Assembly: GCA_963669155.1 (NCBI GenBank)
Contig: OZ022589.1
Span: 3,413,680-3,477,679, forward strand
Length of the DNA stretch: 64,000 nt
Direction: 5' to 3'
Source of the DNA: Arbacia lixula
Lineage: Eukaryota > Echinodermata > Echinoidea > Arbacioida > Arbaciidae
The number at the start of each line of letters is the position of its first letter. Position 1 is the first letter of the stretch. The position numbers were made by a program, and so were the translations under genes. Shown here in pieces: positions 1 through 61,274 of this stretch. The notes under the pieces were generated by a model. That model saw only the letters and a list, made by a program, of their open reading frames with translations, did no database searches and was not told the origin of the DNA.

Positions 1-3000
1 GAATATTGCCACGTCAAGACTACGCCAGACCTCCCCATCGCAGCGGCCATTAGGATGTCGGTCGCAGCACCCGGTAGGCAGCCCAATACCCGTCACCGTC
101 CACAATCTCGACATCATGAGCCAACCAGTACATTTCACACTTGGGATCATCACACTTTTTTTTTAAAAGATATTTGCATTGAATTGATAAAACATGTCAC
201 GCTATGCATTGTCGCAGTGTTGGCACCATGACTACCCCATGACTATTTCCCATAGGGAATTATCTTCTTCTTTTTTTTAATGTTCTTTGGATGTTTCCGT
301 TTACTATAAACAGAATAGCTGTATGCCATCTATACGACATTCGAGAGATTTACAGGATGGTTCATATTAATGGAAACGAAACCTGCAGTGTATATTATAG
401 CGCCATATCAATTGACACGCACATCACATGTATCAATCCTGACAAATCACTATTGCTCAATCGTTTGAACAATCAAATTCTTCTTCTTCGTCATGAAGGT
501 GTGTTTTACCCTTTCAAGCGTGAGCACATGGGCAAAACCAGCTACTACATCGACGGAGGAGTTGTGTGCAACTACGCCATCCACTGTTTTGACGGTGAGT
601 TGCTGTGTCATCTTGTTTGTGATCTAAACGTGTAAAACAAACGTATATGCGTCCCTCTTCAGTTATAGGTAACAACGTATGCACGTAATGTTAGTAAGAG
701 CGCGTCATGTCAAGGATCAAATCAAATTTGACCGCTGGTCATGCCGATGCTAGCTCACAATCCCACTTTTCCTACATCTCCATGACTACCACTTTGATTC
801 CTGACCCCAGGCTGGTGGCTGTCCATGAAACCGGAAGACTCTTTCCTGAAGCGGATGCAGCCCTTGAAAGACGTCGCCAAACTCCTCACCAGGAAAGAGA
901 GATTTGGGACCTTCAACGAGAAGACGTTCGGTATGATCATAGTAAGTACACCCCCTAGACCGCAATCCGCCGACAACGAACGTTGGTGGCGCATCACATA
1001 CAAACATTTTCACTCTGATTTTTTTCGGGCGGACAGATTCGTGGAGTCGCGCAATCAGTGGTATGGTATGGCGCGGTGTGTGTGCGCACTACGTGAATCA
1101 GGGGCGTAATGTGTGTGGGATTTATAAAGCGGACGATATTACGGCCAGTATCTGGACTAGTACAGCCATGGCGGTGGCACACCTTATGAGCAGGGATCTC
1201 AACTCCCACCTCCGTATGAGTATCCTTAATTATGGACTACGTGCTGCCTACAAACCTCATGACCTCAAACGCAGCTTTACCAACATCTTGTAACCAGTTA
1301 CGATTAATCTGATTAAATCGCAAGCCTTATCCCCTATATCTAATATATCGAGTTGCGACATTAATTGCAAACCGGGGCCGACGATTTTCATAGTGCGTTT
1401 TATGTTTCCCGTTGTTAGTGAGCAGGGAAAACTTAAGAAATGTTAGTATAAACAATTATACGTTTGATAAAATAGTTGCAGGAGTTGATTGATTTGATGT
1501 TGAAAGATTTCATTTTATTATGTTGTTGCATTTTTATTTGACTAAGCAGTCCGTGTTGTGTCTGTACGTGTTTTTACATTTTCTACATGTAGTACAGTGA
1601 CTACGACTCGCATGTATTAGCCACCAACCCTCATCTAGAGACTGTCCCGGCGCCCATTCCAAACACAAAACTCGCCAGGTGAGTTTTCTTTTCATATCAC
1701 GTGCTCCCCTCCTTTTCAACAAGTCTGTTCATCCAATTCTTTCATCTCTTTCTTACTACTCACCTCCATCTTCTCAAATTCCTTAATATAAACGTCCTTC
1801 CCATTCCCCTACTCCCCTTCCTCCGTATATTTCTCTCTCTTTTCTCCACATCTCTGTCCTTTTCACCCTCTCTCTCACTCCCCTCCCCAAATTCATGACC
1901 ATCTCCTCCCTTCCCCTCCTTTTCTTCTCTTTTTATACCCCCCCCCCCACCCCTTCTCCTCCGCCTCTCTCTCCCATTCGCCATCTCTCCATCTCTTCGC
2001 AGCACTTGTTCTGCCCTTTCATTTACCATCGCACTCTTTTCTCCCCCCCCCCCCCCTTTCACTGTGCCCCTCAGCCTATGATTTGTTACCTATATACTCT
2101 CGTTATGACACTTTTGCATGGCAAGTACAGTTAAATGTGCTTCTCTATGAAATGTGTGTGTTACTTGTGCAAGGCTATAGTCATACATCAGTGTCCAATA
2201 GAAGGTTTAAAAGCTATGCTCCTCGCTGTACATACGATGTAACGGGTAAACTTCTTTCCTCCGGCGTTTAGAGCCTACCAGCGGATAAAGCGGGAGCGCG
2301 AGCTGACCCTGCGGGAGCACCGGCTGCTGACGGAAGCGATGAACCACTTTCTCAGGTTGCTGAACGAAAACAACCTGGATGGCAATGATACCATTGATCT
2401 CGAGGAGTTCAAGAGAGCCATCACCGACGTGAGTTCCTTTTATACGAGTCATGAAGCTCGGCATGAATTAGCAGTATACCCCGAAGATTACGTTATAATA
2501 TGTGAAAACAAACTATTCTCTTAACCCTGTTTATGATGTTTACGTTGGAAGGTGGAGTGCGGAGAGCGCCGTGATTATGCGCTGTTCGGATCTTTTTGAT
2601 TGCAGGATGATCCGCTGAGTTTTAGACGACCCGTAAAAAATAACTCGATATCTACCGATCAATATGATATTACTTAAACGCAGTTTTTAGTTATAATATT
2701 GGGAGGAGAGTTCTTGGGCCTTTACACGATTTTCTCTCATTTTCCGTGGCATTTACAAAAATTGTTACTGTTTTGACCCGCAAAAGAGCTATCTGTTTAA
2801 TCATGTACTTTAAAATTGCGGCGATTTATCGCTGTCGGTTGCCACCTGTTGCCGTTGGATTTTGTGAAATGAAATCAAGAGCGTTCAATGTGGTAAATTC
2901 AAGAAGGCAAGATGCTCGAGTTGGAGTTAACAAGTCTTATAGAGTACCGAAGTGTGACGTCATTTTGAGCATATTGTCAAGACAACTGTTTCTAAACTAT

Positions 3001-6000
3001 GCGGGTAGAGCAAGTAACGGCGATTAGGAGTGCCTGACCACGAAACCTCTCACTGGAGTGATTTTGTTTATAACCAGTTGTCTTGACAGCACGCTCGAGC
3101 GTGTTCGTATGATTACATGGTCATATAACAACAACACTTCGGTACTCTATACATTCAACATGACTGTCATATTGGCAAGCGGTGCTATATCTCATGTTTG
3201 TGTAATCGCATGCGGCTTTTGTTCATTTTCTTCTGATTTATGTACCATAACAGTAATATTAGTGACGCTCTCGTTCAACTGCTATGAAATCTTTTCCCTT
3301 CCCACCTCTTTCTCCTTTCACCCATCTGATAATAGTCCCTTCTATCGCAATACTCGTTTATCATGACTGCTGTAACTGCCATGGTGCACAAAACAAGATT
3401 AAAACGTTATGAAAGTACACAATTCGTATTCAAAAAACGACTTTGCATAGAGTTCCTAGCATGTAAGAATATTTATCTCGTTATTTGTTATACATATCGC
3501 CTCATGTCTCTTAATTTCTCTCTCAACTTATCGTTTTGTTATCCTCCCTTCTTTTCTTTTTTATTCATCTTCACTCCTCATCTCCTTTTAGTCCACATTT
3601 GTCTCTATTATGGTATTTAAAGTTTTCTCTTTCAATTTGACGTTTATCCTCGCTCTCTGTTTTTCTTTCATGTATCACATTTCCCTCGTTCCATCTTCCT
3701 GTCCTTCTCTCCCTTGCTCTTTGCACCTTTCTCCCCTCTCTTGCAGTATAACGATATCAAGCCGGAGCATGTGTCAGCCCTGTTTGGTACTGACATGACG
3801 ACGGAGGAGATCTTTAAGTCCCTGGATGCTAACAATGATGGCCAGGTTGGTATACTACGTCGTGATACCAATGAAATGGGAAGAAGCTGCGGTCCTTGGT
3901 GGTAGCGCGTTACAAGCCGACCTTACCTTTTCTTTTTAAATAAAAAAAACTTTATTCATGCTCTCTCACAATATGAATATTATAGATGAATGGACACGCA
4001 ATAGATACAAAATGCTTTGATGGACAAGATCCAATAGAAAAAAAAATAAATGGTATAGATTTTAAATAAGTTCGACATGTCTCCCTCTATCGAGAGATGA
4101 AAGACAGTTTTTGAACAAAACAGACAAAGATCCCTTCGAACGTCTTGATGAGAATACAGAGTATTTTAGTGCATAACAATAACGGAATAAAATGAGGAAA
4201 GGTTTCAACCTGGCGCGCCAAAGATATGATCATTAAAAGTTAATTTAATTTGACATTTACGGGTACATTTGTCGAAATCATCTAAGAGTCGACGAGTTAA
4301 GGGCCATTCTCAAAATGAGTGAGCACTAGTTACAATAATCTACTAACCAGAACGCAAACAGATTAGCGTGGGATATACCAATAGTAAACAAATACTTATT
4401 AACACCTAGGTTATCATTAGTTTGAATTCAAAAGAACATTGAAAATGAATCATGCAAACTGTATTTCAGTGCACTCGAACTTACTTGAACTTACTTATTC
4501 CTAACAGAGGCATAGGGTTACACGTATACCCCGTCCCAAAGAATACATTTGAGAGGTTAAGATATCCATGACAGTGAACGTGACCTGATGCTGCTATTAA
4601 CACTACATGCATGCATAACTCTGTTCCATCCACCTGAAGGTTACACTAAGATATGCAAATTTCACGTCACAGTAGAAGTCATAGCCGTGGCTGAATTTTT
4701 TTTTTTTTTTTGTGGGGGGGGGGGGGGGGGGTGAGTGTGATTGGAAACTTGGATTGCAGTATATCGCAATCCCCTCCAATTCTCTGTCAACAAGCAAACG
4801 AGAAATTAGCTTGGAAAAAAAGAGAAGTAATTTTACAAGAATATCACGAGCATGTATATGTATGCATCATTGTTTCAATTGCATTTTAAAATGTTGACAT
4901 CCCTCGACAATATCTAAGTTCCGGCTTGATTAAAATTGTTACCTATAATTGAAGCTGTGATTTTTTTTTAACAGCATTCATTGACATTTGTGGAGAGAGA
5001 GACAGACAGACAGACAGACAGAGAAAGAAAGAGAGAGAGAGGGAGAAAGAGAGAAAAAAAATGGGGGGGGGGGGGGGCTCCATACACATAGACAAACAAA
5101 CCATGGCAGGGGAAGGGCATGCGCAATGTTCAAATGTTGTTACCTTCCCTTCACCGCTCTAGCTCGACTTCCACGAGCTGATGTCGTTGGCCGAGCAGGA
5201 GGGTGTGGGCATCCAGACTCATCATATTGGCTCAGGCAGACTCGACATCAACAACGCTAGCGATTTCTTCGTCGGCATCATTCAGCTGTTGCTCATGAAC
5301 GTCAAACGCGCCTTCATCGAGGTGAACCCTTATTACTCGGCGTGATAACCGAGTCTTATTCAACACGAGTGTGAACGAACCCTTTATGGGGCACTGATGC
5401 GTTGTTGCGCAAGTAATACACGCAAATAACACACGAGAAATACCTTCGTGGTTTCCTCAAATCAAATAGGATTGGGATCCATGGTAGAATGACACTTCGT
5501 TGATACAGGTTCTGTAGTCCTTACCAATGCTACCCCTTACGTTTGACTGTACGCTTCATTACTTACTCATTTATTCCGGTAAGATTTCGTAGGTTCTTGC
5601 TTCATATCCATAAGATTTGTTTTATTGCAACATTGATGTTGATATAGAGCCGCAATGAAATGCAGTCTGTGGACTCATTTAGGCCTTTCAGCGTGTGATG
5701 GAATCAATCCAAAACCAATCAACTACTTGAGGTCCATTTCCAATCATCAATTACGAAGTCGTCTGGTCTGCCGACGCCATTGACCATGTCCTTCTCCATT
5801 TCTCCCAGGGGTGCGACATCGAGCGAACAGTGCTCATCAACACGGTGTACATCAAATCAATGGAATTTGACACAAAGCGGGAAGATCTTGACTTCCTAGT
5901 CGAGGTGAGCGTTCAAGTCTTCTCAATTTAACTATTTACTTGTCTTCCGTGCATTTTCTTCACGGTTAAATGAACTGAAACCATACGTACCAACAATTTG

Positions 6001-6981
6001 TCATACCACAAATGAGGAAAAGTCAGCCGCATTCACATTTTGTTTGCAGCCATGTCCCCTTCCTGGTCTATTGCACTTGTGTATGAGACCGGAAGCAGAT
6101 ATGACATGGACGTTGTAGAGCGGTACATTACGCGACGACTTTCCGTTATATGCGGAATGGGGAATGGTTTCATTCAGAATTAGTTGTTTTCACTGAGAAA
6201 ATCCAGTAAATTTTGTAACCTGCATGATAGGATTGCTGATTTGGCAACATATTCAATGACAGAAACATATTGGCTGTTTCCATACTAGCTACAATTGAAT
6301 TCAATCTGCTTGCTGAATTTATGCAAATAGTCTAAATCTGTAAATGAATCAGACTTTTTTTGGAAACATTTAAAAGCAATCTTCGATTCAAATATATCAG
6401 GCATTTCATAAAAAGTATGCCTAAATTTGGAAAACTTATACGTCATGAGTATTTTAGTACCACGTAGTATGTCGCCTTTCCTTTGAGGTAAATTAACAAT
6501 TCGGCCATGGAGCAGTATGTCATCCTCACGTTTCTACAATTATTTGATATTTTCGTTTGTATTTCCTTCATCGACATTAATGGTAACATGCTTACAGGAA
6601 ATAAGTAATCGATGTCATAAACATGTAAACTACTGTTGTGCATACTCATATTTATTTTGTTTACTCATTTTACCCCAAAATCTTTGTCACGTATCCTTGT
6701 GACGTGAATATGTGTTACATATGATAACACCACATTGCAACACCACAACAACATGCAAGTTTACGAATTTAATGAATCGTATCAATGCATTATAATAGCA
6801 AATGGAAAATACATTAATTATGGTGTGTTAGTAATTTTGACATCCTGTCAAACACGAAGTAAGTGTAAAGAAATGCAATTAATTTTTATAAAATACTTAA
6901 ACTCATTATCTCATATTTTTTTTTAATAAACAGCAAGGTCGTCGTGGAATCAGGGCGTTCTTGAAGTATCAAAGGAATTGA
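1..6981 (+). CDS. patatin-like phospholipase with EF-hands, copy A (3' part, 9 exons)
   Basis: Paralogue of the copy B lipase, entered in frame at its residue 263. Exons: 1-73, 499-594, 811-941, 1593-1678, 2272-2428, 3747-3845, 5163-5321, 5809-5904, 6934-6981 (945 nt, 314 aa plus stop). Visible parts are the end of the core sheet, the catalytic DGG exon (499-594), the linker with charged RIKRERELTLREHR, both EF loops and the C-terminal segment. The Ser elbow and oxyanion loop lie left of the window. No stop or frameshift is seen in these exons. Amino-acid differences from B: V265-region Val to Ala, Ile to Val and Val to Ala in the first exon, Asn instead of Asp at 415, and Leu instead of Pro in the IERTV(L/P)INT segment. 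The remaining exons look identical apart from a few silent changes, so it is probably a functional gene or a very recent copy. Confidence 0.85.
74..498 (+). other. lipase A intron 5 (gap note)
   Basis: Non-coding, AT-rich, with short T runs. The acceptor used is the AG at 497-498, because it gives the patatin-like PGVFYP junction. An open frame running through this intron from 291 is not conserved protein. Confidence 0.7.
942..1592 (+). other. lipase A intron 7 (gap note)
   Basis: Non-coding spacer between the FGMII exon and the YSDYDSH exon. No repeat or RNA gene recognised. The corresponding intron in copy B (43,524-44,183) is nearly identical with small indels. Confidence 0.7.
1679..2271 (+). 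other. lipase A intron 8, pyrimidine-rich (gap note)
   Basis: From about 1,690 to 2,060 the + strand is dominated by C and T with two poly-C runs. Copy B (44,270-44,853) has the same tract with different C-run lengths. No coding content. Confidence 0.7.
2429..3746 (+). other. lipase A intron 9 (gap note)
   Basis: Holds the TA-flanked MITE at 2,940-3,149. The rest is AT-rich or pyrimidine-rich and shows no gene. The MITE is present at the same place in copy B, so it predates the duplication. Confidence 0.7.
2940..3149. mobile_element. MITE, TAGAGTACCGAAGTG family, copy A intron 9
   Basis: A 210-bp element whose ends are near-perfect inverted repeats (TAGAGTACCGAAGTG and its complement), flanked on both sides by TA. 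A second, inner inverted pair (TTGTCAAGACAACTG against CAGTTGTCTTGACA) lies inside. It has no coding capacity. The TA flanks suggest mobilisation by a Tc1/mariner-type transposase (inference). Confidence 0.72.
3846..5162 (+). other. lipase A intron 10 (gap note)
   Basis: This intron splits the second EF-hand loop after its seventh residue. It contains a T-run/G-run pair at about 4,696-4,731, a GACA/GA-rich microsatellite with a G run at 4,990-5,077, and otherwise AT-rich sequence. The G and T run lengths differ in copy B (46,425-47,745). No gene seen. Confidence 0.65.
5905..6933 (+). other. lipase A intron 12 (gap note)
   Basis: AT-rich spacer before the final 15-codon exon. No repeat family or RNA gene recognised. 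The copy B counterpart is 48,488-49,507, with small indels. Confidence 0.65.
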
Positions 6982-34702: not shown

Positions 34703-34932
34703 ATGAAAAATTTTGTGTCAAGTATGGCATCGCAAATATCTACTAACGATGCTGTAGAGCTGACGAAATACACGAACTCAACGTCGAGAACGATCTTGGC
34801 GTCCACGTCGAGGGCGAGTTTGGTATCCATCCGTAGTGGTGGAGCACGATCTCGGTACACGCAGGAGCTCGGAAAAGATGGAAAACGTCGCCAGTCTTCG
34901 TATCACAAAATCATCGAAGTCCCACAAGGAAG
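34703..34932 (+). CDS. first coding exon of lipase copy B
   Basis: The exon is open for 76 codons plus two bases and ends at AG/gtgcgt. The AG joins the single A of the exon at 38,483 to make an Arg codon, which fixes the phase. The peptide is rich in Ser, Thr, Arg and Lys and ends KIIEVPQGR. No other upstream exon was needed to complete the reading frame. It lies about 180 bp after a solo LTR. A non-coding 5' exon further left is possible but not visible. Confidence 0.72.
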
Positions 34933-37900
34933 GTGCGTTCGGGTGTGTATCGGGATACTGATTTACTCATTAATAACAATCAATGTTTTAACTTGATCGC
35001 ATAGGTCCTACTGAAAGCCACTAAGAACAGCCAATGTATCCATGCTTATTATAGCTATCGTCAGGTATCGTTGTGAAGGCTTACAGGATTTTACACGATT
35101 TAAAAAAAAAAACATAAAACTGATTTAATTCACGCGCAGATTTTGCTGCACCTAGATTATGAAGGAATTCGACATGCTCGCGAGATCTTTTGCTGGTGTC
35201 TTCTGTAAGCATACTGATCAGGATTTTTTTTTTAGACAGGGATTGAGATTATATGTTTCTTAATAAATATTTTCAGTTTTTTTCGAAATCCGCAAAGGAG
35301 TTTTTATGTTATTTGCCTTCAAAAACAGGCCTCATTTTTTTTTAATATGTAAGCTCTCAGACCTTGCTGGATCCTGACCCTTCTATGGATTGTACGGCAA
35401 CGACAGTTACGGCTCTAAAAAGCCAATACTTCAGCGGAGATTCTGATTCCAATATTGTTTGGGCTCAAAAATAAAACATTTGTGATATTCGTCTTCAAAG
35501 TGACGCGAGATTTCAGAAATCGTACGGACTTCGCAACCGATATATATGTAAGCTCTCAGACTTTGCTGGATCCTGATCCTTCTACAAATTGGACGGCAAC
35601 ACCAGTTACAGCTTTGGAAAGCCAGTACTCCAGCGGAGAATTTGATTCCAGTTTTGTTTGGGCTCAAAAATAAAACATTTGTGCTATTCGTCTTCAAAGT
35701 GACGCGAATTTTCAGAAATAATACGAACTTTGCAACCGATATTCGTCCACAGGCAGCAGAAAACAGGCGATTTTATTTTCAGCTTGGTAGTCGTGACCTT
35801 CACTTTACCTCTCGAACCGCGAAAAAGGTCTCCCTTTCAAACTGCGATATCTCCATGAAAATATAATATTTTTGTACACTTTCTTTTATAACTGTATGTT
35901 GGAAGTCGATATTTACCAAGGGTGAAAAACAAAACATTTCATTAAAACAGGCAGAAAAATATTGCAAATTCGAGATAAATATGTGGTTCTAATGAAAATG
36001 AAAAATTGAAAATAAACTCTATATTTCAATGTCAATCGCTTTTGAGCCCTTAACATTTAGCGGTCACATGAAGCGAAATTTATTGTACTTTATGGAGATA
36101 CCATTATTTTTCAACCTCCCCCCATAGAAGGGTCAGGATCTAGCAAAACATTAGCCATGTTCAAATCCAAAATGAGCGAGATATGACGAAGTTGTGAGCG
36201 ATCCTAACCAGTCAATCATAGTCCGCGACCCTTGGATCGCCGGTGGAATTTCGTTATTATCGTGGACTATGATCGGCTGGTTAGGATCGTTCACAACTTC
36301 GTCATATCTCGCTCGTTTTGGATTTGAACATGGTTGATGTCTTGCTGGATCCTGACCCTTCAATGGGGGGGGGGGGGGGGGGGGGGGGTTGAAAAATAAT
36401 GGTATCTCCATAAAGTATAATAAATTCCGCTTCAGATGATCTCTAAATTTTAGGGGCTCAAAAGCGATTGACATTGAAATAAAGAGTTTATTTTTTTTTT
36501 AAATTTTATTAGAATCTCATATTTATGTCGAATTTGCAATATTTTTCTGCCTGTTTTAATGATTTTTTTCCACACTTGGTCAATTTCGACCTCCAACATA
36601 CAGTTACAAAAGAAAGCGCACGAAAATATAGTATATTCTTGAAGATATCGCAGTTTGAAAAGGAGACGTTTTCCGCGGTTCCAGGGGTCAAGTGAAGGTT
36701 ACGACTACCTCGATGAAAATAAAATAAGCGTATTTTCCGGTGCCTGCCATTTGGCTGATGGCCAATCAACACTATAGTTACATGCGCATTTTGTTCAAAA
36801 GACTGACCGTTGACCACTCAGAATTTGTCTTTTAAATTTGCAATTACATTACAAACCTTTATGTTATGGAGCAGGATATGTTGGTAAATAAGAAAAAGGC
36901 TCAACCATCACTAGTTGCAACAGTGATTGTGAAATAGCCTTGTTAGGTTGGGAAAGTCTCCTGTATAACAAATCCGAAATGTGCAAAAAAACAAACAAAT
37001 GCAAGGCAGAGAAATATGTTCCCCGGTCATTATATATACGCTTGATAGAGTGCTGCTCTATAGGGCAGTTTTACACATCAGTGTATCTTGATTGTTTACC
37101 AATTTTTTAAAGTCAGGCATATGAATATTAGTTTAGGGCATGGTTGATAAAGCAGTGTCAATGATTAACATGAATATTTGTACAAAGTAATAATAGATCA
37201 TTGCTTGTCGAGAAAAAGGAAAGAATCGGCAATTTAAAAAAGTTGATAATTTACAAAACGATTTACTGCCCGGGAAAGGAACAATAAGATCAGCAATCGA
37301 ACGGAACGCACGAACGTATGTGGGCCGTGCTTTTACCCAGAACTTGCTGGGTGAGGTATTGACTTCATATACTCTTTTCAGATTATGAACAATAAACATG
37401 TTTCAGCTTCAGAAACGGAACGCACTAAGAGTGAAATCAAATCTGAAGGTCACTAAAATACAAGATTGGGATTTGTTATGCAAAAATCAAAAATATTTGC
37501 CAGAATCATGAGTTATGACAGGAAACTACAGATGTACACATTGAACATTTTGATGCTTACATACAGTTCACTTTGCTTTTAAAGTTGTCTTTGGCCATAA
37601 CAAAAACATCCATATAAATCATGTTTATCTTCATCAAGTCAAAATGAAATGTACTTATTTTTGCTTTCTCACTAATACCAATATTGTCACCCGTAGCACT
37701 TCGTCAACACGTGCTTAAACACTGTGAATAATGATTATTTATGTCTCAATCATCTGCTTTATCTCTCTGCATATAATTGGCTCTAAAATAAGAAACAAGT
37801 ACATCGAGATACTAAAATTCCTTGAGAGGGCCATCTCACATGCATGCACAAAGAGAATAACCCTTTTTCTTTGGGGGGGGGGGGGGGGGGGGCGGGGGCG

Positions 37901-39835
37901 GGGAGGGATAAATGAACTTATATCACATGATGATGTGCTTATATATAATGGAAACTGAATATTTTTACGAGGCATTGCGAATTACAGTATACATTTCGTT
38001 TAATGAAATCACTACTAATGGCTAGCGAAAGACACCTAATTGATAGTTGCATAAACCTATATCGTATTGCCTGTGTTGTGTTTTTTTTCTCTTTCATTTG
38101 CTCTACAGCGCCTTGAGCATCTAATTAAGATTGAAAGTGCGCTTCATAAATTCTATGTATTATTATTATCATTATTATACGGGAAAGCCATGGATACGAC
38201 TTGTCATTGTAACAATTTTGTGATGTTCAGGGTCCACCCTCTTTGGCTTATGTTGTCAGTTGTTGCGGTCCTTTTCGCTCGATTAAATCTTTTGCGCTTC
38301 TAGTCTATAAATTCATATTTTGCAAATTTACGAGAAGCGCGTTTCATTGGAAAAACCGATTCGGTTTTTTTTTTATACTTTAGACAGTCATTGCAAATAA
38401 TGTGTGTTTCATCTAAACATATTCATCTTTGAACAGTTGAAATTGAAATAGTGAGATATCATTTGTGTCACGTGCCTAACAGATTCAATCGTCGGTTGTC
38501 AATTCTACGAGAGGCAAGTGATGAGGAGGTTACATCTGTCCAGCCTGTTCCGTCCACGGACGACCTCGACAGCGACGCGACATTCAATGCGTACGACGGG
38601 AAAGTCGAAGACGACTTCTTCCCTTATGAAAACCTTGTCTTGGAAGGAGGAGGTACTCAGGGCAATGCCTATATCGGAGCCATCATGGTATGTTAGCTAA
38701 GCACAACAAAAAAGTATGTCCCCTCTAAGCAAAATAGCATAACTTTTCATCGAAGAGGCTTTGGGCAAAATGATTTGGCAGGATTGTTTCTTAACTTATT
38801 GACTAACTTCTGCGTGAAATCACATTTAATCCAATTAGTCATGCATGAGTGGGCAAATTTTAAAGGCAAAAATGTAACTTTTAAAATATCACAATTGTAA
38901 TTGTTTATGCCGTTTTAACAATACATTTGGGCATTTCTTGTGCGATTTTTAAAGTGTTTTCACTCAACAATGACCCGAAAATGACTTCTTATGTTTACCT
39001 AACATGTCATGGTACATCGTTGTCAAAATATCCAGAGTATTATTTTCTCACCAAAATAAAATGTTTTTTTAAAACTTTCAAACTCAAGAGGGATGAGTAA
39101 TTGTTAAAGTATTTGTCACTCAACCAGAACAATGGATTAAGTGTTGGGATAGGTGTTAGTACATCGAGAGATGGATGATAAACATTGAAATTGCATAAAT
39201 TATGAACCAGAAATGGAATTCATCAAAAATTCATATGACAGAATCCCAAAATTACCCTTGCGACTTTTGACATTTTTACCTTTAAAATTTGGCCATTCAT
39301 GCATGACTAATTGAATTAAGTTGTTTTTCACACATGAGTTAGTCAATAAATTAAGGAACAATCCTGCCAAATTATCTTGCCTAAAATTTCTTTGATAAAA
39401 AGTTTTTTGCTTATGGGGGGGGGGGGGGGGGACGTACTTTTTTGTTGTGTTTAGAATATCGGTATTTGAGTACATTGACATTACGCATTCACACAAATGT
39501 GTGTTATGGTCGTCTTTTTCTGCAATTTTTTTTTTTTATAATAGATTAATCAACCAATCTTATCAAAACTGATTTATCCATAATACATTCAATTTTTTTG
39601 AATGAAAATGTTTCCATTCCGCTTGATAAAAGGAACGGTTATCAATTTTCCCTGAAATGTAAATAGCCAGCCTTCATGAAGCCAGTCTTTCACTTTTCGT
39701 GTGGGAGAGAACGAAGAAGAGTGTAATGAGACGTAATGATCCAATATCAATGATATTGCCAGCCCTCTCCCTTTCCAATTCGATTCTATCTCCTCCTCTC
39801 TTTCTCTCTCTCTCCGCTCTTTCTTTATCTCTTTC

Positions 39836-39877
<42 letters not shown>

Positions 39878-42800
39878 ATTCTTCCAGATTTTATGTCGTG
39901 GTTTAATCATTCTGCGGAAGGAGCTTTATGTATTTCTGAAGAATAATTACCACAACTTATACCTTCAATTATTTCATTTAATTGAAAATTAATCTTTCAC
40001 AGTTCTCTTACGGCCGGCAACACTTAAAAAATTAGCCAAGATATGACTACTTAACTACAAAAAGCCTGACAACGCTAGTTCATCATAACAATAACACTAC
40101 GTATGTCAATACGCTCCATTATGAAAATATTTCGAAATATGTTTCTACCTTAGAGCAACTTATATGTTATATGCCTCCTCTTTTTCTATCGTCATGTTTA
40201 CTCTTAAAAAAATAATATATTTCTCGTTCTTCCGTTCACAAAGATGATTAAGGGAAAGTAATGTTAAGCTTTAGCTTATTTATGCCATGTCCTCATCCTA
40301 ACTTAAAATGTTGAAAATAGATGTTTGAAATGTATTGGCCTTCTTATATTTGTTGTACGTGAAAATGAATGAATAGAACTGAATCTGAATATGTGCCTGG
40401 AGATATACATATACACTGTATATGTATACCTTCGATATATTTAAGTGCCTGTGTGTGTTATACACGGTGTCCATCTCACCTGCCTTCGTTTGCGTTCCGC
40501 TATTATTATAGGAACTGGAGCGATTGGGTTTGCTGCGCAAGATCAAAAGGTTCGCGGGTTCAAGCATTGGCTCCGTCACGGCAGCTTACCTCGCCGTAGG
40601 CCACGGCTCGGATCGGCTTATCAAGTTCGTCACGGAAGGCCCTCAGTTCTCCGACCTTCTCGGTGAGACTACATGTCGTAATGTCCGTTCAGGCGAAGGC
40701 TGATGAATAGTATCTTCAACCTTGGGACCATGCTGGCTATATGATGATTCATACAACTGACAACTCATATGCGATACCAGCAATGATACGCACTGATATA
40801 GATATAGAATTTGATTGAGTCTGTAAGAGGTAAATAAACCTCGTTCATGAAATATCCTACCGGTAATACAATGCGCTGCTGTTTGTCTCCACGCAAGGCG
40901 TCGTGTATCCCACGAGGATACACAATGTGTATTTGTGTATTTATATCACAGTATATATTTATACAAATATTAATTGCTCTGAGGAATGCAACATGACCAT
41001 AAATCCCATACATTGTACGCACAAGATCATTGAAAACGGCGAGTAACCCCGAATTTCACAAATAGGGTCTTAAAATGTGCGCGATAAGTGAAAGAAAAGA
41101 GCGATGGAATCTTAGCGTGGAATGTTTCCCCACCCCCTCCCCCCCAAAAAAAATAAAGTATTCGCGAAAAATGTTGAGGCCTGTCAGCCACCCCCCCCCC
41201 CCCCACCCCGGGCTAGTAAGGGTCCAAAATATAATCACAAGGGGTTCTCCAATCCACATATCCCGATAGAGTTATGACATGTTTCGGGATGATTTTAATA
41301 ACGCCTTGATAATAAGGCTTCCCAGCATACAATCATTATTGACCGGGATTTGGTCCTGAGCAGAACGTTCATTCTCTTTAAATCAGCATCGTATATTTTG
41401 CAGTGTTTGTACCCCGTATGATTGTCACCTTGATTATACGCCTTGTATGGACACAGTGGCAATAGCGATGACGGCATATACAAGAACATTTATTACCATT
41501 CAAATCCTATGAATATCTTACCACGCAAACTGGTCGCTACTAATTCATGTATGAAATCGAATTATGGATTAGTATCATCCTTCAATAATGTTGTGAAGCT
41601 TACGTACTGGACCTGTATGTTTTGTATTGTTCTCGCAATAATTCAGATGCTCCGTTGGGAATGTGCAGTCTGCTGCCTAACTTCCTAAATTATTTCGGTT
41701 GGCACCCCGGTCGTAAGCCCCATGATTGGTTCGCAAGCGTAATCGCCGAGAAACTTGGGAACCCCCACGCCACGTTCAAGGTGCGGTATTGATAACACCT
41801 CCGTCATCATTCACATCATCATAATCACCATCGTTTTCAATATCCACGTCGTCATCGACGTCGCTACCATCATCATCCTCATGGCTGTTACGGTTTTTTC
41901 TCCTCTTGTTTTTTCATTGCCAAGATATATCACATAATCATTGTCGTCACAATCATTGTCTTTAGCATATATGGTCACTATTGTTTCTTACTTACTATCC
42001 TTTTATATTGTCATCACTTACATCATCATACATAACGTTAAAAAAAAGGTCGTGATGACAGCATTAATTTTCTCTCCTCCCCATATATTTGTATTTTATT
42101 CATCACCATTATTGCCTATTTTTCTTCTGACTCTTGTTACATCCTTCTTTGGTTACTGTTACTCGTACCATCAATAACATCCTCTTCCATCTCATCATTC
42201 TTAGCCCTTTTATTTGTTGTGCCCCTTCTCTGTAAATTCTTAATTTCATAATATGTCCATTTTTATCTATATTAACTCGTCTTCCTTCTTTTTACTATTT
42301 CTTTCCCTTTCCCCTCTTTGTCCTTCATCCATCTCCCTCTTCATGTCTTTATCCTACCCTTTAAAAATATTGGTTTTACTGCACACATAGTTTTGAACCT
42401 TTTGTGTGCCAGCTATACTGCTGTTGCATTCGATTTATGTATTTTGTACAGACCTTCATCAATGGTGCATAAAGAATTAAGCAATGCTGTGTCGTATTTC
42501 TTCCGCTAGGACCTTTATGACAAGACGGGGAAGGAGCTGTGCATTGTGGTAACCAACCTGAGCGTGATGATGGAGGAATATTGCCACGTCAAGACTACGC
42601 CAGACCTCCCCATCGCAGTGGCCATTAGGATGTCGATCGCAGTACCCGGTAGGCAGCCCAATACCCGTCACCGTCCACAATCTCGACATCATGAGCCAAC
42701 CAGTACATTTCACACTTGGGATCATCACACTTTTTTTTTAAAGATATTTGCATTAAATTGATAAAACATGTCACGCTATGCATTGTCGCAGTGTTGGCAC

Positions 42801-45800
42801 CATGACTACCCCATGACTACCCCATGACTATTTCCCATAGGGAATTATCTTCTTTTTTTGAATGTTCTTTGGATGTTTCCGTTTACTATAAACAGAATAG
42901 CTGTATGCCATCTATACGACATTCGAGAGATTTACAGGATGGTTAATATTAATGGAAACGAAACCTGCAGTGTATATTATAGTGCCATATCAATTGACAC
43001 GCACATCACATGTATCAATCCTGACAAATCACTATTGCTCAATCGTTTGAACAATCAAATTCTTCTTCTTTGTCATGAAGGTGTGTTTTACCCTTTCAAG
43101 CGTGAGCACATGGGCAAAACCAGCTACTACATCGATGGAGGAGTCGTGTGCAACTACGCCATCCACTGTTTTGACGGTGAGTTGCTGTGTCATCTTGTTT
43201 GTGATCTAAACGTGTAAAACAAACGTATATGCGTCCCTCTTCAGTTATAGGTAACAACGTATGCACGAAATGTTAGTAAGAGCGCGTCATGTCAAGGATC
43301 AAATCAAATTTGACCGCTGGTCATGCCGATGCTAGCTCACAATCCCACTTTTCCTACATCTCCATGACTACCACTTTGATTCCTGACCCCAGGCTGGTGG
43401 CTGTCCATGAAACCGGAAGACTCTTTCCTGAAGCGGATGCAGCCCTTGAAAGACGTCGCCAAACTCCTCACCAGGAAAGAGAGATTTGGGACCTTCAACG
43501 AGAAGACGTTCGGTATGATCATAGTAAGTACACCCCCTATACCGTATTAAGCAATCCGCCGACAACGAACGTTGGTGGCGCATCACATACAAACATTTTC
43601 ACTCTGATTTTTTTCGGGCGGACAGATTCGTGGAGTCGCGCAATCAGTGGTATGGTATGGCGCGGTGTGTGTGCGCACTACGTGAATCAGGGGCGTAATG
43701 TGTGTGGGATTTATAAAGCGGACGATAAAATACGGCCATTATCTGGACTAGTACAGCCATGGTGGTGGCACACCCTATGAGCAGGGATCTCAACTCCCAC
43801 CTCCGTATGAGTATCCTTAATTATGGACTACGTGCTGCCTACAAACCTCATGACCTTAAACGCAGCTTTACCAACATCTTGTAACCAGTTACGATTAATC
43901 TGATTAAATCGCAAGCCTTATCCCCTATATCTAATATATCGAGTTGCGACATTAATTGCAAACCGGGGCCGACGATTTTCATAGTGCGTTTTATGTTTCC
44001 CGTTGTTAGTAAGCAGGGAAAACTTAAGAAATGTTAGTATAAACAATTATACATTTGATAAAATAGTTGCAGGAGTTGATTGATTTGATGTTGAAAGATT
44101 TCATTTTATTATGTTGTTGCATTTTTATTTGACTAAACAGTCCGTGTTGTGTCTGTACGTGTTTTTACATTTTCTACATGTAGTACAGTGACTACGACTC
44201 GCATGTATTAGCCACCAACCCTCATCTAGAGACTGTCCCGGCGCCCATTCCAAACACAAAACTCGCCAGGTGAGTTTTCTTTTCATATCACGTGCTCCCC
44301 TCCTTTTCAACAAGTCTGTTCATCCACTTCTTTCATCTCTTTCTTACTACTCACCTTCATCTTCTCAAATTCCTTAATATAAACGTCCTTCCCATTCCCC
44401 TACTCCCCTTCCTCCGTATCTTTCTCTCTCTTTTCTCCACATCTCTGTCCTTTTCACCCTCTCTCTCACTCCCCTCCCCAATTTCATGACCATCTCCTCC
44501 CTTCCCCTCCTTTTCTTCTCTTTTTATACCCCCACCCCTTCTCCTCCGCCTCTCTCTCCCATTCGCCATCTCTCCATCTCTTCGCAGCACTTGTTCTGCC
44601 CTTTCATTTACCATCGCACTTTTTTCTCCCCCCCCCCCTTTCACTGTGCCCCTCAGCCTATGATTTGTTACCTATATACTCTCGTTATGACACTTTTGCA
44701 TGGCAAGTACAGTTAAATGTGCTTCTCTATGAAATGTGTGTGTTACTTGTGCAAGGCTATAGTCATACATCAGTGTCCAATAGAAGGTTTAAAAGCTATG
44801 CTCCTCGCTGTACATACGATGTAACGGGTAAACTTCTTTCCTCCGGCGTTTAGAGCCTACCAGCGGATAAAGCGGGAGCGCGAGCTGACCCTGCGGGAGC
44901 ACCGGCTGCTGACGGAAGCGATGGACCACTTTCTCAGGTTGCTGAACGAAAACAACCTGGATGGCAATGATACCATTGATCTCGAGGAGTTCAAGAGAGC
45001 CATCACCGACGTGAGTTCCTTTTATACGAGTCATGAAGCTCGGCATGAATTAGCAGTATACCCCGAAGATTACGTTATAATATGTGAAAACAAACTATTC
45101 TCTTAACCCTGTTTATGATGTTAACGTTGGAAGGTGGAGTGCGGAGAGCGCCGTGATTATGCGCTGTTCGGATCTTTTTGATTGCAGGATGATCCGCTGA
45201 GTTTTAGACGTACCGTAAAAAATAACTCGATATCTACCGATCAATATGATATTACTTAAACGCAGTTTTTAGTTATAATATTGGGAGGAGAGTTCTTGGG
45301 CCTTTACACGATTTTCTCTCATTTTCCGTGGCATTTACAAAAATTGTTTTTGTTTTGACCCGCAAAAGAGCTATCTGTTTAATCATGTACTTTAAAATTG
45401 CGGCGATTTATTGCTGTCGGTTGCCACCTGTTGCCGTTGGACTTTGTGAAATGAAATCAAGAGCGTTCAATGTGGTAAATTCAAGAAGGCAAGATGCTCG
45501 AGTTGGAGTTAACAAGTCTTATAGAGTACCGAAGTGTGAAGTCATTTTGAGCATATTGTCAAGACAACTGTTTCTAAACTATGCGGGTAGAGCAAGTAAC
45601 GGTGATTAGGAGTGCCCGACCACGAAACCTCTCACTGGAGTGATTTTGTTTATAACCACTTGTCTTGACAGCACACTCGAGCGTGTTCGTATGATTACAT
45701 GGTCATATAACAACAGCACTTCGTTACTCTATACATTCAACATGACTGTCATATTGGCAAGCGGTGCTATATCTCATGTTTGTGTAATCGCATGCGGCTT

Positions 45801-47569
45801 TTGTTCATTTTCTTCTGATTTATGTACCATAACAGTAATATTAGTGACGCTCTCGTTCAACTGCTATGAAATCTTTTCCCTTCCCACCTCTTTCTCCTTT
45901 CACCCATCTGATAATAGTCCCTTCTATCGCAATACTCGTTTATCATGACTGTAACTGCCATGGTGCACAAAACAAGATTAAAACGTTATGAAAGTACACA
46001 ATTCGTATTCAAAAAACGACTTTGCATAGAGTTCCTAGCATGTAAGAATATTTATCTCGTTATTTGTTATACATATCGCCTCATGTCTCTTAATTTCTCT
46101 CTCAACTTATCGTTTTGATATCCTCCCTTCTTTTCTTTTTTATTCATCTTCACTCCTCATCTCCTTTTAGTCCACATTTGTCTCTATTATGGTATTTAAA
46201 GTTTTCTCTTTCAATTTGACGTTGATCCTCGCTCTCTGTTTTTCTTTCATGTATCACATTTCCCTCGTTCCATCTTCCTGTCCTTCTCTCCCTTGCTCTT
46301 TGCACCTTTCTCCCCTCTCTTGCAGTATAACGATATCAAGCCGGAGCATGTGTCAGCCCTGTTTGGTACTGACATGACGACGGAGGAGATCTTTAAGTCC
46401 CTGGATGCTAACAATGATGGCCAGGTTGGTATACTACGTCGTGATACCAATGAAATGGGAAGAAGCTGCGGTCCTTGGTGGTAGCGCGTTACAAGCCGAC
46501 CTTACCTTTTCTTTTTAAATAAAAAAAAACTTTATTCATGCTCTCTCACAATATGAATATTATAGATGAATGGACACGCAATAGATACAAAATGCTTTGA
46601 TGGACAAGATCCAATAGAAAAAAAAAATAAATGGTATAGATTTTAAATAAGTTCGACATGTCTTCCTCTATCGAGATATGAAAGACAGTTTTTGAACAAA
46701 ACAGACAAAGATCCCTTCGAACGTCTTGATGAGAATACAGAGTATTTTAGTGCATAAAAATAACGGAATAAAATGAGGAAAGGTTTCAACCTGGCGCGCC
46801 AAAGATATGATCATTAAAAGTTAATTTCATTTGACATTTAGGGGTACATTTGTCGAAATCATCTAAGAGTCAACGAGTTAAGGGCCATTCTCAAAATGAG
46901 CGAGCACTAGTTACAATAATCTACTAACCAGAACGCAAACAGATTAGCGTGGGATATACCAATAGTAAACAAATACTTATTAACACCTAGGTTATCATTA
47001 GTTTGAATTCAAAAGAACATTGAAAATGAATCATGCAAGCTGTATTTCAGTGAACTCGAACTTACTTGAACTTACTTATTCCTAACAGAGGCATAGGGTT
47101 ACACGTATACCCCGTCCCAAAGAATACATTTGAGAGGTTAAGATATCCATGACAGTGAACGTGACCTGATGCTGCTATTAACACTACATGCATGCATAAC
47201 TCTGTTCCATCCACCTGAAGGTTACACTAAGATATGCAAATTCCACGTCACAGTAGAAGTCATAGCCGTGGCTGATCATTTTTTTTTTTGTGGGGGGGGG
47301 GGGGGGGGGTGAGTGTGATTGGAAACTTGGATTGCAGTATATCGCAATCCCCTCCAATTCTCTGTCAACAAGCAAACGAGAAAATAGCCTGGAAAAAAAG
47401 AGAAGTGATTTTACAAGAATATCACGAGCATGTCTATGTATGCATCATTGTTTCAATTGCATTTTAAAATGTTGACATCCCTCGACAATATCTAAGTTCC
47501 GGCTTGATTAAAATTGTTACCTATAATTGTAGCTGTGATTTTTTTTAACAGCATTCATTGACATTTGTG

Positions 47570-47601
<32 letters not shown>

Positions 47602-49555
47602 GGAAGAAAGAGAGAGAGAGGGAGAAAGAGAGAAAAAAATGGGGGGGGGGGGGGGGGGGGCTCCATACACATAGACAAACAAACCATGGCAGGGGAAGGG
47701 CATGCGCAATGTTCAAATGTTGTTACCTTCCCTTCACCGCTCTAGCTCGACTTCCACGAGCTGATGTCGTTGGCCGAGCAGGAGGGTGTGGGCATCCAGA
47801 CTCATCATATTGGCTCAGGCAGACTCGACATCAACAACGCTAGCGATTTCTTCGTCGGCATCATTCAGCTGTTGCTCATGAACGTCAAACGCGCCTTCAT
47901 CGAGGTGAACCCTTATTACTCGGCGTGATAACCGAGTCTTATTCAACACGAGTGTGAACGAACCCTTTATGGGGCACTGATGCGTTGTTGCGCAAGTAAT
48001 ACACGCAAATAACACACGAGAAATACCTTCGTGGTTTCCTCAAATCAAATAGGATTGGGATCCATGGTAGAATGACACTCCGTTGATACAGGTTCTGTAG
48101 TCCTTACCAATGCTACCCCTTACGTTTGACTGTACGCTTCATTACTTACTCATTTATTCCGGTAAGATTTCGTAGGTTCTTGCTTCATATCCATAAGATT
48201 TGTTTTATTGCAACATTGATGTTGATATAGAGCCGCAATGAAATGCAGTCTGTGGACTCATTTAGGCCTTTCAGCGTGTGATGGAATCAATCCAAAACCA
48301 ATCAACTACTTGAGGTCCATTTCCAATCATCAATTACGAAGTCGTCTGGTCTGCCGACGCCATTGACCATGTCCTTCTCCATTTCTCCCAGGGGTGCGAC
48401 ATCGAGCGAACAGTGCCCATCAACACGGTGTACATCAAATCAATGGAATTTGACACAAAGCGGGAAGATCTTGACTTCCTAGTCGAGGTGAGCGTTCAAG
48501 TCTTCTCAATTTAACTATTTACTTGTCTTCCGTGCATTTTCTTCACGGTTAAATGAACTGAAAACATACGTACCAACAATTTGTCATACCACAAATGAGG
48601 AAAAGTAAGCCGCATTCAGATTTTGTTTGCAGCCATGTCCTCTTCCTGGTCTATTGCACTTGTGTATGAGACCGGAAGCAGATATGACATGGACGTTGTA
48701 GAGCGGTACATTATGCGACGACTTTCCGTTATATGCGGAATGGGGAATGGTTTCATTCAGAATTAGTTGTTTTCACTGAGAAAATCCAGTAAATTTTGTA
48801 ACCTACATGATAGGATTGCTGATTTGGCAACATATTCAATGACAGAAACATATTGGCTGTTTCCATACTAGCTACAATTGAATTCAATCTGCTTGCTGAA
48901 TTTATGCAAATAGTCTAAATCTGTAAATGAATCAGACTTTTTTTGGAAACATTTAAAAGCAATCTTCGGTTCAAATATATCAGGCATTTCATAAAAAGTA
49001 TGCCTAAATTTGGAAAACTTATAAGTCATGAGTATTTTAGTACCACGTATGTCGCCTTTTCTTTGAGGTAAATTAATTCGGCCATGGAGCAGTATGTTAT
49101 CCTCACGTTTCTACAATTATTTGATATTTTCGTTTATATTTCCTTCATCGACATTAATGGTAACATGCTTACAGGAAATAAGTAATCTATGTCATAAACA
49201 TGTAAACAACTGTTGTGCATACTCATATTTATTTTGTTCACTCATTTTACCCCAAAATCTTTGTCACGTATCCTTGTGACGTGAATATGTGTTACATATG
49301 ATAACACCACATTGCAACACCACAACAACATGCAAGTTTACGAATTTAATGAATCGTATCAATGCATTATAATAGCAAATGGAAAATACATTAATTATGG
49401 TGTGTTTGTAATTTTGACATCCTGTCAAACATGAAGAAAGTGTAAAGAAGTGCAATTAATTTTATAAAATACTTAAACTCATTATCTCATATTTTTTAAA
49501 TAAACAGCAAGGTCGTCGTGGAATCAGGGCGTTCTTGAAGTATCAAAGGAATTGA
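34703..49555 (+). CDS. patatin-like phospholipase with two internal EF-hands, copy B (13 exons)
   Basis: Predicted serine lipase or acyl hydrolase with an EF-hand pair. Exons: 34703-34932, 38483-38687, 40512-40662, 41647-41780, 42510-42648, 43081-43176, 43393-43523, 44184-44269, 44854-45010, 46326-46424, 47746-47904, 48392-48487, 49508-49555. They sum to 1,731 nt, and every junction is GT/AG with matching phase, giving 576 aa. Numbering from the first ATG: Ser/Arg-rich leader 1-76; oxyanion loop GGGTQG 132-137; nucleophile elbow GSSIG 161-165 (Ser163); PGVFYP 286-291; catalytic Asp305 in DGG; EF loop 425-436 (NLDGNDTIDLEE, Asp at the usual Gly); canonical EF loop 470-481 (DANNDGQLDFHE) split by intron 10; C-terminal segment 530-576 with an IERT..INT..IKSMEFD motif resembling the tail of bacterial-type patatins. 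The second ATG (34,724, A at -3, G at +4) is the better start. No signal peptide or membrane segment is evident. Calcium control of lipid hydrolysis is inferred. Confidence 0.88.
34933..38482 (+). other. lipase B intron 1 (gap note)
   Basis: Holds the 1.63-kb foldback-containing repeat (35,130-36,761), a poly-G run at about 37,875-37,892, and otherwise AT-rich sequence. No additional exon is needed here, because the flanking exon phases already match. Confidence 0.65.
35130..36761. repeat. 1.63-kb repeat with internal palindrome, copy 1 (lipase B intron 1)
   Basis: Shared with 61,275-62,907. It has a 220-bp leader, two direct repeats of about 195 bp starting GTAAGCTCTCAGAC (about 35,350 and 35,548), then a near-perfect palindrome of about 1 kb (35,752-36,748) centred near 36,245. 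Non-coding. The right arm of the palindrome has a long poly-G run that the left arm has as CCCCCC. Confidence 0.85.
38702..39449. mobile_element. 748-bp inverted-repeat element in lipase B intron 2
   Basis: Ends CACAACAAAAAAGTA and its inverted copy; the inverted arms extend about 175 bp (through GGCAGGATTGTTTCTTAACT and TTAGTCATGCATGA) with mismatches, around a non-coding middle. The right arm has a poly-G run in place of CCCC. It begins 14 bp after the splice donor of exon 2. A convincing target duplication was not found. Confidence 0.75.
39450..40511 (+). other. rest of lipase B intron 2 (gap note)
   Basis: CT microsatellite at about 39,760-39,875 and AT-rich sequence. The AG at 40,510-40,511 is the acceptor for the exon that carries the catalytic serine. 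Confidence 0.65.
40663..41646 (+). other. lipase B intron 3 (gap note)
   Basis: AT-rich with a C-rich run pair at about 41,132-41,215. No repeat family or exon recognised. Confidence 0.6.
41781..42509 (+). other. lipase B intron 4, ATC/pyrimidine-rich (gap note)
   Basis: Low-complexity ATC/CAT-rich stretch at about 41,790-42,050, then pyrimidine-rich DNA. Spurious short open frames only. Confidence 0.65.
43524..47745 (+). other. lipase B introns 7-10 (gap note)
   Basis: Same content as the copy A introns: pyrimidine-rich tract 44,280-44,640, the MITE 45,522-45,731, T/G runs near 47,279-47,310, and a GA/GACA microsatellite with a G run 47,570-47,660. Exons inside are given in the gene entry. 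Confidence 0.6.
45522..45731. mobile_element. MITE, TAGAGTACCGAAGTG family, copy B intron 9
   Basis: Same insertion as in copy A at the orthologous intron position, flanked by TA. The right end has one extra difference (TTACTCTA where copy A has GGTACTCTA-type sequence). A shared position means it was there before the block duplicated. Confidence 0.72.
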
Positions 49556-51281: not shown

Positions 51282-52253
51282 TCAATTACTTGTACTGCTC
51301 GTTGGGGCTGAGGCCTGTTTGAGGTAGGCTAGCATATCCGCCCGCTTCCCGTGGTTGGTGTGAAGTAACCTGAAGAACATCTTGGTGCCCGGGATGTGCC
51401 CACGGTCGAAGTAGTCCCACAGCGTCTTGTCTTGCCACACTATCCCTGCAGTGGAAAGGACATGAAATCTTTATGTGCCACAAGTGAATTTATTCATCAA
51501 GATACACATACAAAACCAATTGGAAGGGTTGAGTCACATGTTTATAATCCTACATCAGAGGAAGGCTCAGGTGACGTAACACTTCGGTATTCTATAATCT
51601 GATAATAATACGTATTTTCTCATTTTATGATTGATATCAAAACCGACGGGGCAGATCAGTGTAGGACAAAAATAAAAGATTGGAAAATTATTTCAATCAC
51701 GAGATGATGCACATTTCGATCAAACAGTTAATAATATGTCGACGCATATACTCATTGACATCATTTGGAGTCATGCATTTTCATGAACTCTATGTGTGTC
51801 ACGTGTGATTTCTCTACCATAATACACTCAAACCCCATATCAGAGTTTTTAATCTGACACACAGGGGTTAGTAAGGACCATGATAAAATATGGATTGCAT
51901 TTATTCGGTAATATATATATATATCGTGAAGGATTTGTAATGTAGATGTTTGTTTGATTTTATGAGAAATGTTCGTTTTTTATTTGATTCAATAAAAAAT
52001 GCCTATAGTGGGCTAAATATATTGAAAAAATGTAAATCGTTTACCTTTCTTCTCGTCGGAAGCAGCAAAACGGTATCCGGGCGCCGTGTTAGCCTCTCTG
52101 CCCCAAACCCCCCAGAGGTTGGGGCCAGACGCGTGGCGGCCACTGGGGTCTAGCGAGTGGCATGCGGCACAGATCTCCCGGTACAGCTCCTTCCCCCTCG
52201 CTGAGTCTCCGGGCGGGAGGGTCCACACGTCACGCTCCGTCTCAGCTGCTTTA
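51282..52253 (-). CDS. divergent cytochrome c, copy B (two 3' exons)
   Basis: Intact counterpart of the copy A gene: exons 52253-52045 (209 nt) and 51445-51282 (164 nt). Here the 5' end of the first visible exon reads KAAETERDVWTLPP, like a natural N-terminal extension before the cytochrome fold, and the exon starts with one base of a split codon, so at least one more exon lies upstream (higher coordinates). Haem attachment CAACH, GPNLWGVWGR, and IPGTKM with the methionine ligand are present. The tail ends QASAPTSSTSN. Differences from copy A in the second exon are silent where compared. The gene converges on the lipase, with stops about 1.7 kb apart. It could be a tissue-specific second cytochrome c or a diverged relative; the sequence alone does not decide. 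Confidence 0.82.
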
Positions 52254-60410: not shown

Positions 60411-61274
60411 TGGAAACGTTGATTTCAGATTTGGATTTGAGAAGTAACATAATAACGTGCCCAGCAGCGCCCAAGCTATTATTTTTATCTACAAATCATT
60501 ACATTTCATATTCGCTTGTCCTTCGTGGAGATTTTTCTCAAAATGTTACGAGTGCAGTGGCAAATCATTTCATTGGAGCTGGGAGCACGACAGGCAAATA
60601 CCTACCAACATTTAAGAAATTGATACCATTTATTATTCCCAAAGTCAATGAAAGTGGGCAGAGCATCGCCAACATTATTAATGCACGTAATTTTGTTTAA
60701 AATAAGTCGAATATACCATTCAGTGCGATTTAATTTGTGTTCTCCATAATATTGGGCGCATTTCATACACGGAGTCGGTAACTGTACACTTCATGTCTTT
60801 GTTGGAGAGTGGCGAGGTAGCAACAGACGAAGCCTGTTGTAAAGAAAGAAGTTAGGTGTTCTGAGATCCCGCTTGTATTGTATTTAGTGTTGCAGGTATT
60901 TAGAGCAGGAGTCACACGGCCATGACAGTTGGACTCCCACCAGTACATTTTATTGTGATAGAGGGAAGACGGTTTACAAAAACGGAGACATGATACTTAT
61001 GAACAAGGCTGAGCTGGTCTGTTTTCTCTTGCTTGTTATACTCAAATTGAGATATCATAGAAAAAGACTCCTGTATAGATATGGCCGGTGTAATATAATG
61101 GCGTGTCTTGAAATTTGAAATAGAAACTTAGAAATAACATCCACCCATTTAGATTCCCACTACAGTGGCTGTGGTTGGCAGATATTCTTGACAATACGAT
61201 ACATAACAGTCAATCGGCAGCGCTCGCTCGTTCTATAGAAATCGTGAGCGTTTTATTTTTCGTCTCGCGAAATC
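60411..61274. other. spacer (gap note)
   Basis: A 97-codon + frame at 60,407-60,700 is protein-like in its second half (FIGAGSTTGKYLPTFKKLIP) but I do not recognise it and see no splice context. The remainder is AT-rich without features. Confidence 0.3.

Follow-up and report, generated by a model that had tools for sequence, protein, structure and literature searches.

Animal patatin-type phospholipases A2 are commonly classed as calcium-independent, and an apparent enzyme of this kind that carries a pair of EF-hands raises the question of where the pair sits in the fold and what calcium could do there. Such a gene, here called B, lies in a 64,000-nucleotide stretch of the sea urchin Arbacia lixula (assembly GCA_963669155.1, contig OZ022589.1, forward-strand positions 3,413,680 to 3,477,679; hereafter the window). 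Rebuilt from splice signals and reading phase, gene B (+ strand, 34703-49555) has 13 exons encoding 576 residues and a stop, with a computed protein mass of 65 kDa, and all 12 introns are GT-AG and phase-consistent. An earlier note, made from the letters of the window alone, had proposed phase-consistent exons carrying the motifs GGGTQG, GSSIG and DGG, followed by two EF loops. Both proposals held: the motifs stand at residues 132, 161 and 305 of the rebuilt protein, and the loops at the very residues given before, 425-436 (NLDGNDTIDLEE) and 470-481 (DANNDGQLDFHE). The note had also remarked that the first loop has Asp for Gly at position 6 and that the second is canonical, and this was borne out; set against the pattern Asp1, Gly6, Glu12, EF2 conforms and EF1 fails, having Asn at position 1 and Asp at position 6.

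In Pfam, the window protein scored above the gathering scores of Patatin (PF01734; 4.4e-19, 69.9 bits versus 27.7), EF-hand_1 (2e-8) and, narrowly, the pair model EF-hand_7 (PF13499; 3.8e-7, 30.8 bits versus a cut-off of 30), and below those of EF-hand_5 and EF-hand_8. The Pfam scan covered the window protein and six of the paralogs described below, with tandem copy A left out; Patatin and EF-hand_7 were matched in all seven proteins at an E limit of 0.1, and neither ankyrin nor C2 families were among the Pfam matches of the seven. NCBIfam gave no named family above its cut-off for the window protein, the nearest models (VpdC, 5.9e-10; XopAW, 2.6e-5) both falling far under theirs. The closest sequences in the PDB were VipD (1.1e-11) and ExoU (4.6e-10), members of Pat_ExoU_VipD_like and its nearest solved relatives by sequence. 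Judged by these matches and motifs, gene B encodes a bacterial-type patatin phospholipase with a predicted Ser163-Asp305 dyad. The enzyme is probably intracellular.

The earlier note had placed the EF pair before a C-terminal segment. That order is real and recurs in eight genes, but alignment refines it by placing the pair within the patatin fold itself. The reference for this alignment was a set of four plasmid-borne bacterial patatins, with the Ensifer protein divergent in the tail region; against those of Kovacikia, Peribacillus and Nitratidesulfovibrio, the patatin core and tail (NNASDFFVGIIQLLLMNVKRAFIEGCDIERTVPINT...) flank the EF pair. The suggested likeness of the tail to bacterial-type patatins was confirmed by the family profile, which gave two bacterial tails as matches of their own, that of the Nitratidesulfovibrio patatin at E 2.4e-8 and that of the Kovacikia patatin at 4.2e-4. 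Small bacterial patatins (Kovacikia, Peribacillus; PlpD) have the same order of core and tail as the window protein, but only a short stretch at the EF site. Among the matches listed, the stretch from strand 5 to the tail helix had a median length of 21 residues in 77 bacterial or viral open reading frames (ORFs), and measured 144-148 residues in seven aligned animal proteins. A single one of the 77 ORFs listed was long, the EF-bearing L061 with 141 residues; the next had 24. These ORFs were obtained with a search alignment extended with bacterial members, from the best 80 of 444 confirmed relatives and 5 viral loci, 77 of the 85 loci giving an ORF under the motif filter and 8 giving none, and the counts are lower bounds. 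As an observation apart, the Nitratidesulfovibrio patatin (L005:1498-2925) has a long low-complexity insert, rich in Gly, Ala and Asp, after the catalytic Asp and before strand 5.

On this alignment, the EF pair of the window protein follows strand 5 and precedes the helix, strand 6, the lid loop and the C-terminal helix. Strand 5 would correspond to residues ~356-362, the EF insert to ~363-505, the helix to 507-529, strand 6 to 535-542, the lid-like loop to 543-552 and the C-terminal patatin helix to 553-574. Strand 6 and the C-terminal helix are present by tail homology and are also predicted in L061, whose modelled structure has the same succession as VipD: strand 5, then the insert, then a helix, strand 6, a loop and the C-terminal helix. 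By Z-score, VipD was the top structural match of this model (Z 25.6, root-mean-square deviation 2.6, 256 residues); by Foldseek E-value, CapV ranked first. The EF part of L061, predicted alone from the single sequence, reached a predicted local distance difference test score of 51.5. In passages of a 2026 review (PMC12871566), the part of patatin enzymes that runs from strand 5 to the C-terminal helix is termed the regulatory segment; in VipD it comprises strand 6 and a lid loop at 376-386, which is shifted by Rab5 binding so that the pocket is exposed. The same passages describe VipD and ExoU as sensing host proteins (Rab5 and ubiquitin) through further domains. The window protein instead has an EF pair within the regulatory segment, and it stops at the patatin helix, at residue 576, with no C-terminal co-activator-binding domain of the VipD or ExoU kind.

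Gene B has relatives in the host genome (607 Mb, 590 contigs), where 67 exon-sized matches to the window protein were found and eight genes modelled from them: B, its tandem copy A (98% identical to B), F (71%), G (69%), H (63%), C (56%), D2 (45%) and D1 (44%). All eight have kept, after the strand-5 exon and ahead of the tail, exons for the EF insert, which argues that the architecture of the window gene is not a chance assembly. The oxyanion motif, GxSxG and DG(G/A) were intact throughout. EF2 was canonical in six of the eight, D1 and D2 being without its Gly6, and Gly6 of EF1 was absent from every gene except D2, so that the weak-looking first loop remarked on in the note is typical of the family; the loops have thus diverged in both directions, with D1 and D2 lacking the EF2 glycine instead or as well. 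Intron positions and phases were mostly identical to the base across the family, apart from fusions of exons 4 and 5 in C, D1 and D2 and, in D2, of exons 9 and 10; some paralog exon ends, few in number, were displaced by multiples of three bases. The paralog models are incomplete at their ends: besides exon 1 (Table 1), D1 is modelled without the start of exon 2 and D2 without its last exon, and the last exon of D1 is a weak match. Further patatin-domain matches, outside those of the family, were seen on four host contigs (G000:C13, C4, C58 and C1; L001-L004). The host's mitochondrial contig (15,740 bp) encodes a COI with TGA, a Trp codon in this code, within its frame; its 2 AAA codons stand at expected Asn sites, its ATA at an Ile site and its AGA at a Ser site. 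Such a code is common to echinoderms and flatworms, the COI looks like that of an echinoderm, and the finding accords with the presence of a purple sea urchin protein in the ExoU/VipD patatin family (PMC5127104).

Selection was gauged from dN/dS, the ratio of nonsynonymous to synonymous changes, counted by the Nei-Gojobori method in nine paralog pairs over residues 124-561, the EF insert and the tail (501-561). Seven of the nine pairs gave 0.11-0.24 over residues 124-561 and 0.16-0.29 over the EF insert alone, where the ratio was undefined for A-B (few changes) and B-C (saturated). The tail was looser in some pairs, up to 0.46 (B-H), and the ratios are rough, as dS exceeded 1 in several pairs besides the saturated B-C. 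The A-B pair gave 0.46 over residues 124-561 and 0.58 over the full length, with 12 nonsynonymous and 6 synonymous changes, too few for a judgement. Most of the compared pairs are under purifying selection, and the EF insert is kept and not drifting. Copy A lies 42.8 kb upstream of B and is 97.3% identical to it over 14.9 kb. An uncollapsed haplotype would be compatible with this identity, but is disfavoured since there is no N gap in the window or in the sequence to its left; a real tandem duplication is favoured for that reason, although not proven. As a separate matter, intron 6 of F and G (L043, L045) contains, ahead of the real exon 7 (WWLSMKPEDSFLKRMQPL), further copies of it that have decayed, one of them with an internal stop, and none were found in the other six genes; they could be leftovers of a tandem exon duplication.

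The order of patatin core, EF pair and tail is also found in bacteria. The full window protein found no relative among viral contigs, nor did the animal family alignment among bacterial and viral contigs, and it was the extended alignment that yielded L061, an ORF of 502 residues without interruption that lies in 70% GC sequence of the metagenome-assembled genome Deltaproteobacteria bacterium HyVt-553, with bacterial-looking ORFs as neighbours. The animal profile matched it at 8.6e-119, covering 46-497 of 510 positions. Of 377 genomes sampled from its phylum, 4 had full-length matches, one of them (G001) by construction, since it supplied L061 and L061 is part of the query alignment; four more genomes had core-only matches. 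The four EF-bearing genomes (loci L061, L147, L148 and L149) fall in one class, where 71 genomes were sampled. In three other phyla, searched at E 1e-70, 0 of 294, 0 of 398 and 0 of 296 genomes matched, an empty answer that carries little weight. Like the animal genes, the bacterial proteins have a GW(W/Y)LS segment beyond the catalytic Asp, together with the linker, the two EF-hands and the tail; unlike them, they are intronless, occur as one match per genome in an uninterrupted reading frame, and in four of four open the EF1 loop with Glu and have Gly at its position 6. EF2 was canonical in all four. L061 scored 28.6 against EF-hand_7, slightly under the cut-off, and passed the single-hand model EF-hand_1. 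Identity between L061, L148 or L149 and seven animal proteins was 31-38%, with L147 outside the matrix. PADLOC models of phospholipase effectors from the cyclic oligonucleotide-based antiphage signalling system (CBASS) gave weak core-only matches (window protein, at best 3.6e-4; L061, at best 1.1e-7). Read by eye, L147 and L061 have in common a downstream leucine-rich-repeat-like ORF.

Because four bacterial genomes carry the patatin-EF order uninterrupted, animals did not invent it. A tree of 83 sequences, built on 305 well-filled columns and thereby excluding the insert, grouped the animal proteins (support 100), the EF-bearing bacteria (100) and both combined (100) against 71 insert-free patatins, five further ORFs having been removed by length. 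With the two together in one clade at full support, the sequences are most simply explained by a single origin of the EF insert. Animals and EF-bearing bacteria are sister groups in this tree, so that transfer may have run either way. The bacterial outgroups lean towards a bacterial origin of the architecture, though the host genes are the tree's only eukaryotes.

What, then, might calcium do? That the patatin core, EF pair and patatin tail form a real architecture is close to certain, and that the gene family has retained a function is very likely. Gating is plausible, because the insert occupies the segment in which VipD, a related enzyme, bears its lid. Ca2+ binding, chiefly by EF2, would rearrange the EF pair, which is tethered on one side to strand 5 and on the other to the helix that precedes strand 6, the lid-like loop (~543-552) and the C-terminal helix; the lid would then move and the acyl pocket open, Ca2+ playing the part that Rab5 plays for VipD. 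By analogy with the nearest relatives, the substrate would most likely be membrane phospholipid. From sequence, we consider the chances evenly balanced for and against a Ca2+ switch acting on the lid through the EF insert. The fuller proposal, that such a switch was built into the lid-bearing regulatory segment in a single invention and was transferred ready-made between bacteria and animals, is offered tentatively, and we are inclined to doubt it.

The main rival to the lid switch is targeting, in which the EF pair would be a Ca2+-dependent address label that docks an always-open enzyme on a membrane or a partner, much as the C2 domain does for cPLA2. EF pairs often bind target helices. The insert, although joined to the core at both ends, is predicted as a separate helical unit, and the long helix ahead of EF1 (L061 312-349) could serve in docking. 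Labels are usually terminal, however, and this pair lies inside the fold, in the very segment where the lid of VipD moves; on balance we think targeting unlikely. Less probable again is a purely structural pair, holding Ca2+ or Mg2+ constitutively or no ion at all, that merely secures the regulatory segment. The degenerate EF1 of seven animal genes and the missing EF2 glycine of D1 and D2 would suit it, but the canonical EF2 of the other six and of all four bacteria has persisted over a large divergence, which seems to exceed structural need.

Two further explanations would remove the enzyme or the insert from the picture. Some or all copies could be inactive relatives that reuse the patatin fold, which an eight-gene expansion would permit and nothing supports directly; with the catalytic motifs intact in every gene and dN/dS as low as reported over residues 124-561, this is highly improbable. 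That the EF exons stand outside the main transcript, being skipped or belonging to another gene, is harder still to credit. Exons 10, 11 and 12 are each frame-neutral singly, as are exons 8 and 9 jointly, and skipping would leave the frame intact. Against this, the exons are co-located in eight paralogs, the four bacteria have the whole in one reading frame, and exon 11 holds half of EF2 together with a patatin helix.

Coordinates are collected in Table 1. The 86-nt exon 8 was the best-scoring of 38 frame-compatible candidates, the second-best having the same donor. For exon 12, the CCCAG acceptor just upstream of 48392 was adopted because phase, pyrimidine tract and bacterial tail all agree; a start from a TACGAAG acceptor (~48342) was rejected, as it broke the phase after exon 11 and added a stretch without bacterial counterpart.

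Table 1. Exons of gene B and the portion of tandem copy A that lies in the window (window positions).
Feature	Position	Strand	Content
Exon 1	34703..34932	+	Start codon, Ser/Arg-rich N-terminus; recovered solely in B and tandem copy A
Exon 2	38483..38687	+	Patatin core begins; oxyanion motif GGGTQG, residue 132
Exon 3	40512..40662	+	Nucleophile elbow GSSIG, Ser163
Exon 4	41647..41780	+	Patatin core with GWHPGRK
Exon 5	42510..42648	+	Patatin core with EYCHVKTTPDLPI
Exon 6	43081..43176	+	DGG with predicted catalytic Asp305
Exon 7	43393..43523	+	WWLSMKPEDSFLKRMQPL segment specific to the family; strand 5 (KTFGMII)
Exon 8	44184..44269	+	Linker PIPNTKLAR; conserved in paralogs
Exon 9	44854..45010	+	EF-hand 1, loop NLDGNDTIDLEE, residues 425-436
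Exon 10	46326..46424	+	EF-hand 2 loop, first part (DANNDGQ)
Exon 11	47746..47904	+	Remainder of EF-hand 2 loop (LDFHE); helix back to patatin sheet
Exon 12	48392..48487	+	Strand 6 (ERTVPINTV), lid-like loop, C-terminal patatin helix begins; homologous to bacterial patatin tail
Exon 13	49508..49555	+	C-terminal patatin helix ends; stop
Tandem copy A, exons 5 (partial, window edge) to 13	1..6981	+	Exons 1-4 left of the window, from G000:C14:3405579

Other features of the window were also recorded. A cytochrome-c-like ORF (CAACHSLDPSGRHASGPNLWGVWGRE), identified by eye, lies downstream of both B and A inside the duplicated stretch (52013-52279 and 9542-9826, both - strand). Also by eye, the ORF at 63127-63858 (-), ending in NPFIYAAR, resembles a G protein-coupled receptor, and that at 13518-13970 (+) the zinc-binding end of a non-long-terminal-repeat retrotransposon reverse transcriptase. 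A repeat of ~1.6 kb occurs at 35127-36759 and 61271-62906 (92% identical), with a ~1 kb part that is self-complementary, and a tandem repeat with a ~2.16 kb unit (96-98% identical) fills 22820-28205.

Parts of this picture are already in the literature. In passages of PMC5127104, Pat_ExoU_VipD_like is said to include proteins from the purple sea urchin, a sea anemone, Trichoplax and the lancelet, and PNPLA9 (iPLA2 beta) and cPLA2 share with the window protein a patatin-type Ser-Asp dyad. PNPLA9 is termed calcium-independent in the passages of PMC12871566, and cPLA2 employs a C2 domain according to passages of PMC6523306; the ankyrin repeats of the one and the C2 domain of the other are both missing from the Pfam matches of the window protein. 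On the cortical vesicles of sea urchin eggs, the same passages of PMC6523306 describe an iPLA2 band of ~63 kDa, interpreted there as a cleaved 80-85 kDa iPLA2; the 65 kDa window protein is a possible but unsupported alternative source. The earlier note knew of no described animal lipase with this order. A search of the literature on patatin or PNPLA with EF-hand, judged by titles and the starts of abstracts, likewise found no description of the EF-insert architecture among the papers listed; the order is shared with the four bacterial genomes. The catalytic family in sea urchins and other invertebrates is already on record; new are the EF insert, where it lies in the fold and the fact that one bacterial class has it too.

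With an EF pair in a VipD-like lid segment, Ca2+-driven lid opening can be tested directly. If it proves true, it would be a third route to a calcium-dependent phospholipase A, beside the catalytic Ca2+ of sPLA2 and the C2 domain of cPLA2, and the protein would be a single-chain counterpart of enzymes that require a separate activator. It would also be a regulated enzyme common to one small bacterial group and an animal.
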